This document shows positions 56,644-60,647 of a stretch of DNA of 64,000 nt, one piece after another. The notes under the pieces are model-generated. The model saw only the letters and a list, made by a program, of their open reading frames with translations. It was not told the origin of the DNA and ran no database searches. Position 1 is the stretch's first letter; each line of letters begins with the position of its first letter. A program made the position numbers and the translations under genes. Source of the stretch: Gammaproteobacteria bacterium (GTDB taxonomy: Bacteria; Pseudomonadota; Gammaproteobacteria; Burkholderiales; Sulfuricellaceae); assembly GCA_018824405.1 (NCBI GenBank), contig JAHJGO010000022.1, forward strand, positions 1 through 64,000, written 5' to 3'.

Positions 56644-56703
56644 CCACGGGGAGCACGGGGCGCACGGGGTTTGCTTTCCCTGTGCTCCCCGTGTGCCCCG
56701 TAG
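56644..56703. repeat. Nonamer-unit palindrome after tkt
   Basis: The left arm (56644-56669) is CACGGGG repeated three times at 9-base spacing, with the right arm (56678-56703) its near-exact complement (21 of 26 pairs, plus two G-U), loop of 8 bases. It begins with the first base after the tkt stop. Confidence 0.85.
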
Positions 56704-56739
56704 TTCAGGAATTTATTTCTAAAACCAAGGAGAAAACAT

Positions 56740-57738
56740 ATGACAATTAAAGTTGGTATCAACGGATTTGGCCGTATCGGCCGCATGGTGTTCCGCGCTG
56801 TAGCGAAGGACTTCAAAGACATCGAGATCGTTGCCATCAACGATCTGCTCGAACCCGACTACCTGGCTTACATGCTGAAATATGACTCCGTGCATGGCCG
56901 CTTCAATGGCGATGTCTCCGTTGACGGCGGCAACATGGTGGTTAACGGCAAGAAAATTCGCCTGACCGCCGAGCGCGACCCAGCCAACCTGAAGTGGAAT
57001 GAAGTGGGTGCCGATATCGTGATCGACTGCACCGGCTTCTTCCTGACCACCGAATCCTGCCAGGCGCACATCACCGCCGGTGCCAAGAAGGTGGTTCAGT
57101 CCGCTCCAGCCAAAGACTCCACTCCCATGTTCGTATACGGTGTGAATCACACCAAATACGCTGGTGAAGCCATCGTTTCCGCCGCTTCCTGCACCACCAA
57201 CTGCCTGGCTCCGGTCGCCAAGGTGCTGAACGACAATTTCGGCATCAAGCGTGGTCTGATGACCACCGTGCATGCAGCGACTGCCACCCAGAAAACCGTT
57301 GACGGTCCTTCCATGAAGGATTGGCGCGGTGGTCGTGGCATCCTGGAAAACATCATTCCGTCTTCCACCGGTGCTGCCAAGGCTGTGGGCGTGGTGTTGC
57401 CAGAACTGAAAGGTCTGCTGACCGGCATGGCTTTCCGTGTGCCGACCTCCGACGTGTCCGTGGTCGACCTGACTGTGGAGCTGAACAAGGCAGCCTCCTA
57501 CGACGACATCTGCAAAGCCATGAAAGCGGCTTCTGAAGGTGCGATGAAAGGTGTTCTGGGTTATACCACCGAAAAAGTGGTTTCCACCGACTTCGTTGGC
57601 AACAGCGCCCCGTCTACTTTCGACGCTGAGGCTGGTATCGCGCTGGATCCAACCTTCGTCAAGGTTGTGGCCTGGTACGACAACGAGTACGGCTACACCT
57701 GCAACATGATGCGCCTGGTGCAGCACGTAGCAAAATAA
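56740..57738 (+). CDS. gap: Glyceraldehyde-3-phosphate dehydrogenase, type I
   Basis: The 332-residue protein has the NAD fold [14 protein letters not shown] and the catalytic Cys in [17 protein letters not shown], with the phosphate site [11 protein letters not shown] and [10 protein letters not shown] at the end. It interconverts glyceraldehyde 3-phosphate and 1,3-bisphosphoglycerate. A strong AAGGAGA lies 8 bases before the ATG. A heptad palindrome sits at its 3' end. Confidence 0.96.
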
Positions 57739-57816
57739 GTGAAATGTGAAGGGTGAAACGTGAAAAGTGGGGTGCCCCCCGCTTTTTCGTTTCACTTTTC
57801 ACGCTTCACTGTGCAC
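57739..57816. repeat. Heptad-unit palindrome after gap
   Basis: Five 7-base units run from the stop codon: GTGAAAT, GTGAAGG, GTGAAAC, GTGAAAA, GTGGGGT (57739-57773). The right arm (57789-57816) is the complement type GTTTCAC, TTTTCAC, GCTTCAC, TGTGCAC. One unit pairs exactly (GTGAAAA with TTTTCAC). The innermost unit, GTGGGGT with GTTTCAC, would pair in RNA through four G-U steps. Confidence 0.85.
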
Positions 57817-57821
57817 CACTA

Positions 57822-57861
57822 ACGCCTTGAGGCGTAAGGCATAGGCCCACCTATGCCTTAC
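57822..57861. repeat. Two hairpins ahead of pgk
   Basis: ACGCCT/AGGCGT (57822-57835, 2-base loop) is followed at 57834-57861 by GTAAGGCATAGG/CCTATGCCTTAC, a perfect 12-bp stem with a CCCA loop. There is no T-run, so a terminator is unlikely. AAAGGAG of pgk lies just downstream. Confidence 0.7.
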
Positions 57862-57887
57862 ACCTTAATTTCTAAAGGAGCTGAACA

Positions 57888-59072
57888 ATGTCCGTAATTC
57901 GCATGACCGATCTGGACCTCAAGGGAAAGCGCGTATTCATCCGTGCCGACCTCAATGTGCCCGTGAAGGAAGGTAAAGTGACTTCCGATGCGCGCATCAC
58001 TGCTTCCATGCCAACCATCGAGCATGCCATGAAGGCCGGCGCCAGGGTGATGGTGACTTCCCACCTGGGCCGACCTACCGAAGGCGAGTGGAGCGAAGAG
58101 AACTCTCTCAAGCCCGTGGCTGACGTGATGTCCGCCAAGCTGGGCAAGTCTGTGCGCGTGATCAAGGACTGGGTGAACGGTGGCTTCGACGTGGCCGAAG
58201 GCGAAGTCGTATTGCTGGAAAACTGCCGCATCAACAAAGGCGAGAAGAAGAACGTTGAAGAAACGGCCAAGAAATACGCTGCACTGTGCGACGTGTTCGT
58301 GATGGATGCTTTTGGTACTGCTCACCGCGCAGAGGCTTCTACCTATGGCGTGGCCCAGTTCGCTCCCGTGGCCTGCGCCGGCATGCTGCTGACCGAAGAA
58401 CTGGACGCCCTGACCAAGGCCCTGCTCAGCCCGGCCCGCCCGATGGTCGCGATCGTCGGCGGTTCCAAGGTTTCCACCAAGCTGACCGTACTCGAATCCC
58501 TGTCCGAGAAAGTGGATCAGATGGTGGTGGGCGGCGGCATCGCCAATACCTTCCTGGCTGCCACCGGGAAGAACGTAGGCAAGTCTCTGTGCGAAAATGA
58601 CCTGATCCCCACCGCGCAGGCCCTGATGAAGAAAATGACCGCACGTGGCGCGACCATTCCGGTTGCCGTGGATGTAGTCTGTGGCAAGCAGTTTGATGCC
58701 AATGAACCTGCCGTGCTTAAAGATGCTGGCGCGGTATCCGACGACGACATGATTTTCGACATTGGCCCGAAATCTGCTCAGGAGATCGTCGACATCATCA
58801 TGAAAGCAGGTACCGTGGTGTGGAACGGACCGGTTGGCGTGTTCGAGTTCGATCAATTCGGCGAGGGCACAAAGGCCATCGCCATGGCCATCGCCAACAC
58901 CAAGGCATTCACCCTGGCCGGCGGTGGAGATACGATTGCCGCGATCCAGAAATATGACATCTTCGACAAGGTCTCTTATATTTCAACAGCCGGCGGCGCC
59001 TTCCTCGAGTTCCTCGAGGGAAAGAAACTGCCTGCTGTCGATATTCTCGAAAAACGCGCCGCTAAAAAATAG
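57888..59072 (+). CDS. pgk: Phosphoglycerate kinase
   Basis: A 394-residue Pgk with [18 protein letters not shown] at the N-terminal domain, [27 protein letters not shown] and the C-terminal nucleotide loop [12 protein letters not shown]. It converts 1,3-bisphosphoglycerate and ADP to 3-phosphoglycerate and ATP, or the reverse in the Calvin cycle. AAAGGAG lies 8 bases before the ATG. The ATG of pyk is 70 bases after its stop, beyond a heptad repeat. Confidence 0.96.
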
Positions 59073-59073
59073 G

Positions 59074-59137
59074 GAGTAATGGGTGATGGGTGATGGGTGA
59101 TGGGTTTCCCATCCCTCATTACCCGTTGCCTATCACC
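59074..59137. repeat. Heptad-unit palindrome between pgk and pyk
   Basis: GAGTAAT and three copies of GGGTGAT (59074-59101), then GGGTTTCCC at the turn, then a right arm CCCATCC, CTCATTA, CCCGTTG, CCTATCA at 59108-59135. Most mismatches in the stem are transitions; several leave G-U pairs. Confidence 0.82.
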
Positions 59138-59141
59138 ACAA

Positions 59142-60578
59142 ATGATACGCAGAACCAAAATAGTAGCGACTCTTGGACCTTCGTCGAACGACCCTAAAGT
59201 GTTGGACCGGCTGATTGAAGCTGGTGTGGATGTTGTCAGGCTGAATTTCTCCCATGGCACGCCAGAAGACCATATCGAACGTGCTGAAATGGTGCGCTCC
59301 CTGGCCCGTGCGCGTGGCCGAGCAATTGGGGTACTGGTCGACCTGCAGGGACCGAAGATTCGTATCGGAAAATTCGAGAACGGCAAAATTTCCCTCGCCA
59401 ATGGCGATACTTTCATTCTCGACGCAGATTGCACTCTGGGCAACCAGGAGCGAGTTGGCCTGGATTACAAGGCTCTGCCCAAGGATGTCGATCGCGGATC
59501 CACGCTGCTGCTGGATGATGGCCGCATCGTGATGTGGGTGGAAGAGGTGCGCGGCAACGAGATCGTATGTCAGGTACGCCAGGGTGGTGTGCTGTCCAAC
59601 AACAAGGGTATCAATCGTCAGGGCGGCGGACTTTCCGCAGCTGCGCTGACCAACAAGGACAAGGAAGACATCAAGACTGCAGCGGCGCTCAAAGCGGATT
59701 ATCTGGCAGTTTCCTTTCCCCGTAATGCGGCAGACATGATTCTGGCGCGTGAGTTGATGCATGCGGCGGGCGGCCATAGCCTGCTGGTGGCAAAAATAGA
59801 ACGGGCTGAAGCCATTCCGGCGCTGGAAGAGATTCTTGATGCCTCTGACGCCATCATGGTGGCACGCGGAGACCTCGGCGTGGAAGTCGGTGATGCCGCC
59901 GTGCCTGCATTGCAGAAAAAAATGATTCGCATGGCGCGGGAAAAGAACAAGCTGGCGATTACTGCGACCCAGATGATGGAGTCAATGATCACCAGCCCGA
60001 TCCCGACGCGTGCCGAAGTCTCCGACGTGGCCAACGCGGTGATCGACGGTACCGATGCGGTCATGCTTTCGGCTGAAACTGCTGCAGGTCAGTACCCGGT
60101 AGAAGCGGTTCAGGCGATGGACCGGGTCTGCGTGGAAGCAGAAAAGGAAATCGAGATTTCGCCAGCCAGCCTGCGCCTGAAGCGGGAAACCGTTGGCCCT
60201 ATAGATGAATCCATCGCCATGGCCGCGATTTACACCGCTAATCATTTGCAGGTCAAAGCCATTGCGGCCCTGACGCAGTCCGGTTCCACCACGTTGTGGA
60301 TGTCGCGCATTGCTACCGCCGTACCGATCTACGCCTTGACACCGCAGGTGGAAACCCGTAGAAAAGTGACTTTGTTTCGCGGCGTGCACCCGATCAATTT
60401 CAAGATGTTCACGCACGATCCGGAACTGTTGTTGCGTGAGGCGGAAGACGAACTGCGCCGTCGCGGTGCAGTGCGCGATGGCGACACGATTTTGCTCACC
60501 ATCGGCGAACCTATCGGCAAAACCGGCGGCACCAACACCATGAAAATCGTCACAGTTGGCGAGCATCGCAAGGCATAA
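59142..60578 (+). CDS. pyk: Pyruvate kinase
   Basis: The 478-residue protein has RRTKIVATLGPSSNDPKVL at the start, VRLNFSHGTPEDH, VDLQGPKIRIG, MVARGDLGVEVGDA and TATQMMESMITSPIPTR, all standard. It makes pyruvate and ATP from phosphoenolpyruvate and ADP. ATG 59142 fits homologues, but no Shine-Dalgarno precedes it: the 5' side is the end of the repeat's right arm (CTATCACCACAA). Neighbours gap, pgk and fba do have strong ribosome sites. Confidence 0.94.
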   Translation: MIRRTKIVATLGPSSNDPKVLDRLIEAGVDVVRLNFSHGTPEDHIERAEMVRSLARARGRAIGVLVDLQGPKIRIGKFENGKISLANGDTFILDADCTLGNQERVGLDYKALPKDVDRGSTLLLDDGRIVMWVEEVRGNEIVCQVRQGGVLSNNKGINRQGGGLSAAALTNKDKEDIKTAAALKADYLAVSFPRNAADMILARELMHAAGGHSLLVAKIERAEAIPALEEILDASDAIMVARGDLGVEVGDAAVPALQKKMIRMAREKNKLAITATQMMESMITSPIPTRAEVSDVANAVIDGTDAVMLSAETAAGQYPVEAVQAMDRVCVEAEKEIEISPASLRLKRETVGPIDESIAMAAIYTANHLQVKAIAALTQSGSTTLWMSRIATAVPIYALTPQVETRRKVTLFRGVHPINFKMFTHDPELLLREAEDELRRRGAVRDGDTILLTIGEPIGKTGGTNTMKIVTVGEHRKA

Positions 60579-60581
60579 ATC

Positions 60582-60647
60582 TGGGAATGGGTGATGAGTA
60601 ATGAGGGACGAAAGCCCACATTGCCCATCACCCATTACTCATCACCA
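60582..60647. repeat. Heptad-unit palindrome between pyk and fba
   Basis: GGTGATGAGTAATG (60590-60603) pairs perfectly over 14 bases with CATTACTCATCACC (60633-60646). The 7-base unit lets the arms slip: AATGGGTGATG on the left can also pair one register over. It starts 3 bases after the pyk stop, and AAGGAG of fba lies 14 bases past it. Confidence 0.85.

Follow-up and report, generated by a model that had tools for sequence, protein, structure and literature searches.

Why does each gap of the tkt–gap–pgk–pyk–fba operon open with a hairpin of the same design but a different sequence, and what keeps the two arms of such a hairpin alike? The operon lies in the window analysed here, a 64,000-nucleotide stretch of contig JAHJGO010000022.1 from a gammaproteobacterium of the Sulfuricellaceae (assembly GCA_018824405.1), and in all four gaps the arms consist of short tandem units of 7 or 9 bases. 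The answer that we favour, with moderate confidence, is that these are repeat palindromes that turn over and are homogenized at the DNA level in slots where they are tolerated. The four hairpins would then be local copies of a genome-wide kind of paired tandem-repeat palindrome that sits in same-strand, often operon-linked spacers.

The element behind tkt (56642–56705) has 28-nt arms of CACGGGGNN around an 8-nt loop and covers all but the first base of the stop codon. Behind gap (57738–57810), 28-nt arms of GTGAAAN-type heptamers enclose a 17-nt loop, the stem covering the stop codon's last base; behind pgk (59076–59136), the arms are 29 nt of GTGATGG/GTAATGG with a loop of 3 nt, and behind pyk (60586–60636), 22 nt of GTGATGR/GTAATGR with a loop of 7 nt. 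None of the four is assigned to a strand. Arm period and self-identity were 9 and 0.74 for tkt, and 7 with 0.74, 0.75 and 0.63 for gap, pgk and pyk. A first-pass annotation, made from the sequence alone, had described a 9-base build behind tkt and 7-base builds behind the other three genes, and had held that this is not one repeat copied four times; both points stand. Its distance of 0–3 bases from the stop codon fails for pyk, as the stems start at −2 (tkt), −1 (gap), +3 (pgk) and +7 nt (pyk).

RNA folding, one of the checks proposed there, returned strong hairpins, with z-scores of −6.0 (tkt–gap), −10.9 (gap–pgk, a stretch that also includes a second hairpin), −4.6 (pgk–pyk) and −5.7 (pyk–fba); no shuffle out of 200 folded equally well for any gap. 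Nor is the periodicity expected by chance: among the 32 palindromes of a 595-kb genome sample, 13 had an arm period of 7 or 9, compared with about 0.2 for shuffled arms, and a Markov null of the same size produced only two palindromes altogether. A palindrome at 53488–53560, earlier taken as related, proved not to be tandem-armed (53487–53561; period score 0.55 against a cut-off of 0.6). It begins ATGTAGGGTGGGTTAG and resembles repetitive extragenic palindromic (REP) sequences; related palindromes occupy the same operon gaps in some relatives.

Tandem-unit palindromes are not special to this operon and are more general than the first-pass annotation had supposed. A census of 995,333 of the 3,028,462 bases of the window's genome, G000 (a non-random sample, mostly contig starts plus two long contigs), used a looser score cut-off than the 595-kb sample and a period-test cut-off of 0.6. 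It yielded 26 palindromes whose arms are periodic at 7 or 9 bases, roughly one every 38 kb; the tkt–fba operon supplies five of them if its second hairpin (57827–57868) is counted. Twenty-three lie in same-strand gaps and one in a convergent gap, while divergent gaps have none; the other two fall inside open reading frames (ORFs) that were called by our simple gene caller and are perhaps spurious. In 400-kb samples of two further members of the family, we found ten such palindromes in G005 (nine same-strand, one convergent) and four in G013 (two same-strand, two in called ORFs). Several census neighbours resemble classical operon pairs by protein sequence; hslV, ilvH, ilvC, glyA and nrdR were tested against Pfam, and the remaining neighbours were recognized by eye.

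Outside the tkt–fba operon, and excluding the two in doubtful ORFs, 18 of 19 census elements of G000 occupy same-strand gaps, starting a median of 6 nt past the stop codon and ending a median of 16.5 nt ahead of the next start. Sixteen of these 18 begin within 15 nt of the stop codon, as against 8 of 15 other palindromes in same-strand gaps; the same is true of all four tkt–fba elements and of 8 of 9 in G005. The link to stop codons, which the earlier annotation had asked to be sought genome-wide, is thus present.

Such placement speaks for a rival explanation in which selection acts on the RNA: the hairpin would be a 3′ exonuclease barrier for the upstream cistron or a brake on ribosomes that reach the stop codon, and its sequence would not matter as long as the hairpin is strong. 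REP sequences within 15 nt of a stop codon are described as stalling ribosomes in the available part of one report (PMC12306157). We take this explanation seriously but consider it the less probable course of events, for reasons that emerge from the comparison of relatives and from the arms themselves.

We compared the four operon gaps in up to 17 of 19 family genomes (G000–G018), and the hslV–hslU, ilvH–ilvC, ilvC–psd and glyA–nrdR gaps in G000–G013, counting any palindrome with a score of 9 or more as present, whatever its kind. A palindrome was found in 104 of the 122 orthologous gaps: 14/17 for tkt–gap, 17/17 for gap–pgk, 16/17 for pgk–pyk, 7/16 for pyk–fba, 12/14 for hslV–hslU, 13/14 for ilvH–ilvC, 13/13 for ilvC–psd and 12/14 for glyA–nrdR. 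Automatic labels gave 85 tandem-unit, 9 REP-like, 10 unassigned and 18 empty gaps; after relabelling by hand these became 91, 8, 5 and 18. Every one of the eight gaps holds several unit families among the relatives. Behind gap, for example, we found GTGAAR, GTCAGCN and GTGAGGN three times each, GCAAGNN and GTAGCTG twice each, and two REP-like kinds twice each. Comparison with close relatives, another check that had been suggested, therefore returned a hairpin that is mostly retained and a sequence that is exchanged.

For selection on the RNA, this persistence despite exchanged sequence is a point in favour, as are the 47 of 51 gaps occupied in G001–G007 and the gap–pgk hairpin found in all four extra-family genomes compared. 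The pyk–fba gap, where 9 of 16 family genomes have no palindrome, speaks against it. Beyond the family, none of 39 gaps was labelled tandem-unit and 9 of 39 held some hairpin; the GTGAAR-type palindrome pattern matches G036, a genome of the same order, so the kind is not restricted to the family. Nine named relatives (six of them titled Sideroxydans, Gallionella, Gallionellaceae or Ferrigenium) all lack a hairpin in tkt–gap, and seven of the nine have one in gap–pgk, tandem-unit by eye in two.

The unit families are also shared among loci of one genome. A heptamer label was available for 75 of 105 gap-by-genome cells over seven gaps, and the null was obtained by redealing families among genomes within each locus. 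Same-genome pairs of loci shared a family in 66 of 167 cases, compared with 33.0 (sd 4.6) after shuffling, and none of 5000 shuffles reached 66. With automatic labels only, the figures were 55 of 130 against 24.3; leaving out each of 14 genomes in turn gave 0 of 1000 shuffles every time. The excess persisted when a single gap per operon was used (19/49 against 8.9; 2 of 2000 shuffles) and with an alternative choice of gaps (24/58 against 13.5; 2 of 2000). Families were shared by the same locus across genomes in 101 of 385 pairs, and by different loci of different genomes in 394 of 2223. Genome is thus a better predictor of family than locus is (66/167 against 101/385). As a strong hint, though not as a count of events, the pattern suggests that unit families change in step across a genome.

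Individual gaps offered observations of their own. At one locus of G002 (L041), the end of tkt, about 75 codons of which lie in the locus, is 85% identical, as against 99% for gap; the neighbouring genus may be the source of both this stretch of tkt and the CGCAAAG palindrome that follows it, in a joint acquisition. In the pyk–fba gap of L041 and L043, a comparison of G002 with G004, the inserts of the two arms match by eye in reverse complement, as if swapped between arms, although over their full length these gaps are aligned better in same-strand orientation (104 vs 66). The ilvH–ilvC gap of G013 (L321) seems by eye to have lost a CGCAGAG palindrome that is found in G008 and G012, with a short joint remaining, and in the ilvC–psd gap of G006 (L315) one arm has grown to nine or ten CCCATTA units, by eye a recent-looking slippage. 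The swapped-looking inserts and this expansion speak for change at the DNA level.

The nine-base class reaches much further. Inward-order CACGGGG palindromes occur in 8 of 61 genomes, the window's own included, and all but one of these eight belong to the window's genus; the reverse order, CCCCGTG-loop-CACGGGG, occurs in none of 22 genomes, seven of which carry the inward form; this polarity is a statement about the CACGGGG pattern only. With CACAGAG as first unit, the class was matched in at least 117 stretches of named genomes. Among the matches listed, the hosts include Acidobacteria, Chloroflexi, Planctomycetes, Verrucomicrobia, Deltaproteobacteria and archaea of the Methanosarcinales, in records that are mostly metagenome assemblies and may individually suffer from binning error. 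The 117 listed loci, all of other genomes, comprise 58 same-strand, 16 convergent and 9 divergent sites, 22 in called ORFs and 12 at contig edges; among these listed matches, convergent sites match the expectation and divergent sites fall below it (p 0.03 by count, 0.016 by length).

We used 134 pattern-selected palindromes with three CRCRRRGNN units per arm and loops of 3–34 nt, most of them from genomes far outside the family, to compare the variable dinucleotides of the two arms. In phase, 51 of 268 matched (null 30.7, sd 5.0); shifted by one unit, 55 of 268 did (null 28.9, sd 5.2). The slip to a second register that the first-pass annotation had pointed out is thus borne out as freedom of register. 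Since in-phase and shifted matching are equal, exchange of units fits better than selection on base pairs. Judged from these sequences, the arms share ancestry or exchange units, and what keeps them alike is not pairing in a single register.

The loops are mostly unrelated between copies (among 8911 pairs of 9-mer elements, a 9-mer is common to both loops in 42), and a mobile unit carrying its own loop was rejected on this ground. AAAACC occurs in 24 of 134 nine-base loops (2.4 after shuffling), and AAACC in 12 of 20 seven-base loops extended by four arm bases per side (1.2 after shuffling); the excess in both classes hints at a common origin or process. AAACC showed no significant strand bias either in 34 census elements (11 sense, 6 antisense, p 0.33) or at 58 loci of other genomes (6 sense, 8 antisense), which also counts against selection on the RNA. 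A G-quadruplex as the shared basis was rejected, several unit families being without G-runs.

Two further candidates were tried and set aside. In the first, the stop codon itself would open the array as a unit; it was in phase in 4 of 21 census arrays (7 out of phase, 2 ties, 2 with a single triplet, 6 without) and in 7 of 23 operon arrays (10 out of phase, 4 single, 2 without); against a one-in-seven expectation this is suggestive, and it was not used. A fixed G excess of the left arm, seen in 23 of 26 elements of G000 and in all 4 of G013, is not general, as G005 shows it in only 3 of 10.

Several points weigh against homogenization at the DNA level as we propose it. An RNA role would require just such a location, behind stop codons, and a palindrome that persists at its slot could mean selection for a hairpin slot. 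Divergent gaps are avoided, a conclusion the data support: among gaps of 70–139 nt in G000 and G005, none of 32 divergent gaps is occupied, compared with 25 of 177 same-strand gaps, those of the tkt–fba operon included (p 0.017). At this matched length, avoidance of convergent gaps was not significant (1/18 vs 25/177, p 0.48), and G013, outside that test, gave 1 of 38 same-strand, 0 of 4 convergent and 0 of 9 divergent gaps. On the transcribed strand, the four tkt–fba elements together have 13 G-U and 4 A-C pairs, and operon gaps of 20 other genomes have 99 G-U and 64 A-C (p 0.0076 if cells were independent, which they are not; the count takes in the second hairpin and repeats related genomes). 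In-phase spacer matches are commonest at the outer position (35 of 134) and rarest at the inner one (16), and AAACCC in loops is sense in 9 cases and antisense in 2, which is not significant (p 0.065). As to the comparisons, the 104 of 122 overstates persistence for an average gap, the eight gaps having been picked because G000 has an element there; the unit-family labels come from pattern counts with 13 cells relabelled by hand; and the sharing test (66/167) was made without a species tree. Spread between loci, finally, is our reading of the sequences rather than an event directly observed.

The G-U pairs pointed out in the first-pass annotation are in excess in the four operon elements but not in 29 other oriented census elements (41 G-U vs 46 A-C), and on this ratio RNA-level upkeep through G-U pairs was rejected as a general mechanism. 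That ratio, the 51 in-phase and 55 shifted spacer matches, the lack of a significant strand bias in the loops and the outright replacement of arms between relatives all run counter to the earlier hint that the hairpin is kept at the RNA level; maintenance at that level is not supported. An effect of the hairpins on the mRNA is nonetheless plausible, and may include the role in transcript stability or translation that the first-pass annotation had raised.

Transposition offers another account, in which the palindromes are REPIN-like mobile elements moved by a Y1 transposase (REP-associated tyrosine transposase, RAYT). Their inverted doublets with a spacer resemble REPINs as described in the available part of the literature (PMC3116915), Y1 domains occur in 16 of 22 genomes, with two matches in G000, and REP-like palindromes (GTAGGGTGGRCACG, GTAGGAGCGGC, GGGTTAGCG) fill the same gaps in some relatives. 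Yet neither G006, a 91% complete draft, nor G013 has a Y1_Tnp match, and both carry elements, CACGGGG palindromes at eight places by hand count in the former and heptamer ones in the latter. Recent loss of the transposase could explain such genomes; the arms, however, are tandem units and not one conserved 16-mer, and we consider this account very unlikely.

Two more possibilities have less still to recommend them. Sites for the DNA-bending proteins IHF or HU, as proposed for paired sites of Geobacter metallireducens, would share the architecture (its class 2 unit TCTCCGTS[Y] is paired on opposite strands in the part of PMC2700814 that describes it), but the IHF consensus is in none of 34 census elements, and close relatives differ in unit family; this would be surprising if true. 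Intrinsic attenuators or terminators between the genes seem just as improbable: a simple scan flags 57762–57787 within the gap element and 57834–57861 in the second hairpin, but the region has 13 such sites against 15.4 in shuffles, and none falls at the other three elements.

The place and build of the elements, the inward order of CACGGGG, the persistence of the palindrome, the change of family and the sharing of families within a genome are seen directly in the sequences. Under DNA-level homogenization, slippage of units and their exchange from one arm to the other would keep the arms alike, and unit families resident in the genome would spread from slot to slot, so that a slot stays filled while its sequence is overwritten. 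The hairpin in the mRNA would be a consequence; it may act weakly and independently of sequence, as E. coli REP sequences do by stalling ribosomes within about 15 nt of the stop codon. A bolder version, which we think improbable, is a trans-acting process, perhaps with its own enzyme, by which a limited repertoire of 7- and 9-base units, specific to the genome, is written into conserved slots between operon genes, older units being replaced in place. It would leave paired arms and mostly unrelated loops with a tendency to AAAACC, and would act on the same nine-base class in archaea as well as bacteria.

The second hairpin of the gap–pgk spacer (57827–57868, plus strand), which is missing from the earlier annotation, behaves differently. 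It was matched in all 17 family genomes that have the gap, with a search pattern that fixes much of the sequence. Among 16 distinct sequences, two stem pairs switch between G-C and A-T with G-U as the sole intermediate (3 cells), an apparent covariation among related sequences; other positions are less clean, with one C-C in 13 of 16 and A-C in 5 cells at two further pairs. The period test flags it (7, 0.67), but we take it for something other than a tandem-unit element. It changes more slowly than the adjacent element of the same spacer, and in a different way. Being conserved while its neighbour is replaced, it is the better candidate for an RNA role in the operon. An Rfam scan of the window gave no match at the gathering score and seven weaker ones, the best with an E-value of 0.012.

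All five genes of the operon lie on the plus strand: tkt (transketolase, 54658–56643; Pfam PF00456, PF02779), gap (glyceraldehyde-3-phosphate dehydrogenase, 56740–57738; PF00044, PF02800), pgk (phosphoglycerate kinase, 57888–59072; PF00162), pyk (pyruvate kinase, 59142–60578; PF00224, PF02887) and fba (class II fructose-bisphosphate aldolase, 60673–61737; PF01116). The start of pyk is our choice, the ORF list having 59097. Behind fba, a GC hairpin with a T-run (61776–61804, plus strand), read by eye with hand-counted coordinates and not flagged by the terminator scan, is likely the operon terminator.

How do these elements compare with known systems? Among the closest are the GGGAATC / GGGGA(C/T)T heptamer repeats of Xanthomonas and Nostoc, which are intergenic, favour aligned ORFs less than 50 bp from the stop codon on the sense strand, are less frequent than expected between divergent ORFs and include 70 and 75 inverted pairs in convergent orientation; the available text of that report identifies no function for them (Rehm et al. 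2015, PMC4692102). Like them, three of the four elements here have 7-nt tandem units (the tkt element has 9-nt units), and elements lie between aligned ORFs near the stop codon (18/19 same-strand; 16/18 within 15 nt). Unlike them, with their one G-quadruplex-forming type of unit, the elements here comprise many families, several without G-runs, 9-base units and a change of family. GTGAAAN and GTCAGCN have no G-tracts and do not fit GGGNATC; among the window's heptamers, the pgk element has four GGG runs. Mycobacterial interspersed repetitive units also lie in operon spacers and are not known to be tandem-unit palindromes.

Also close are the paired tandem-repeat "global regulator binding sites" of classes 1–3 in the 2009 genome paper on Geobacter metallireducens, which lie on opposite strands at a distance that varies in classes 1 and 2 (PMC2700814, as far as the available text describes them). 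By published unit, class 2 TCTCCGTS[Y] is one base off the complement of CACGGGG and fits the CACGGAG of relatives, and the architecture is also seen in the 134 CRCRRRGNN palindromes, which were selected by that pattern. The Geobacter sites were considered possible protein-binding sites, and the available part of that paper holds no analysis of stop codons, operon gaps or orthologous gaps. The TAACTGA heptamers of Beggiatoaceae form abundant intergenic arrays with a patchy phylogeny; unlike the elements here, they are described, in the text available, as direct repeats mostly just before start codons, with one indirect repeat (PMC4679880). REP sequences influence translation when they lie within 15 nt of a stop codon (PMC12306157), and REPINs are inverted doublets around a spacer (PMC3116915), each according to the accessible portion of the source. 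The likeness lies in hairpins near gene ends, all four elements here being within 15 nt of the stop codon; the difference lies in a conserved REP sequence there and tandem 7- and 9-base units here, where the link to RAYT genes does not hold.

The kind of element is therefore already in print, as heptamer repeats (2015) and paired sites (2009). In their available text, these earlier accounts of single genomes do not explain spread or the upkeep of pairing, and in the literature searched, with subscription papers mostly outside it, we came across neither an exchange of families at orthologous gaps nor their sharing across a genome. What appears to be new is the persistence of the palindrome with exchange of family, together with sharing within a genome. 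A strong hairpin behind a stop codon need not be a conserved regulator, and an occupied slot with exchanged sequence across species makes the choice between slot selection and DNA-level homogenization testable.

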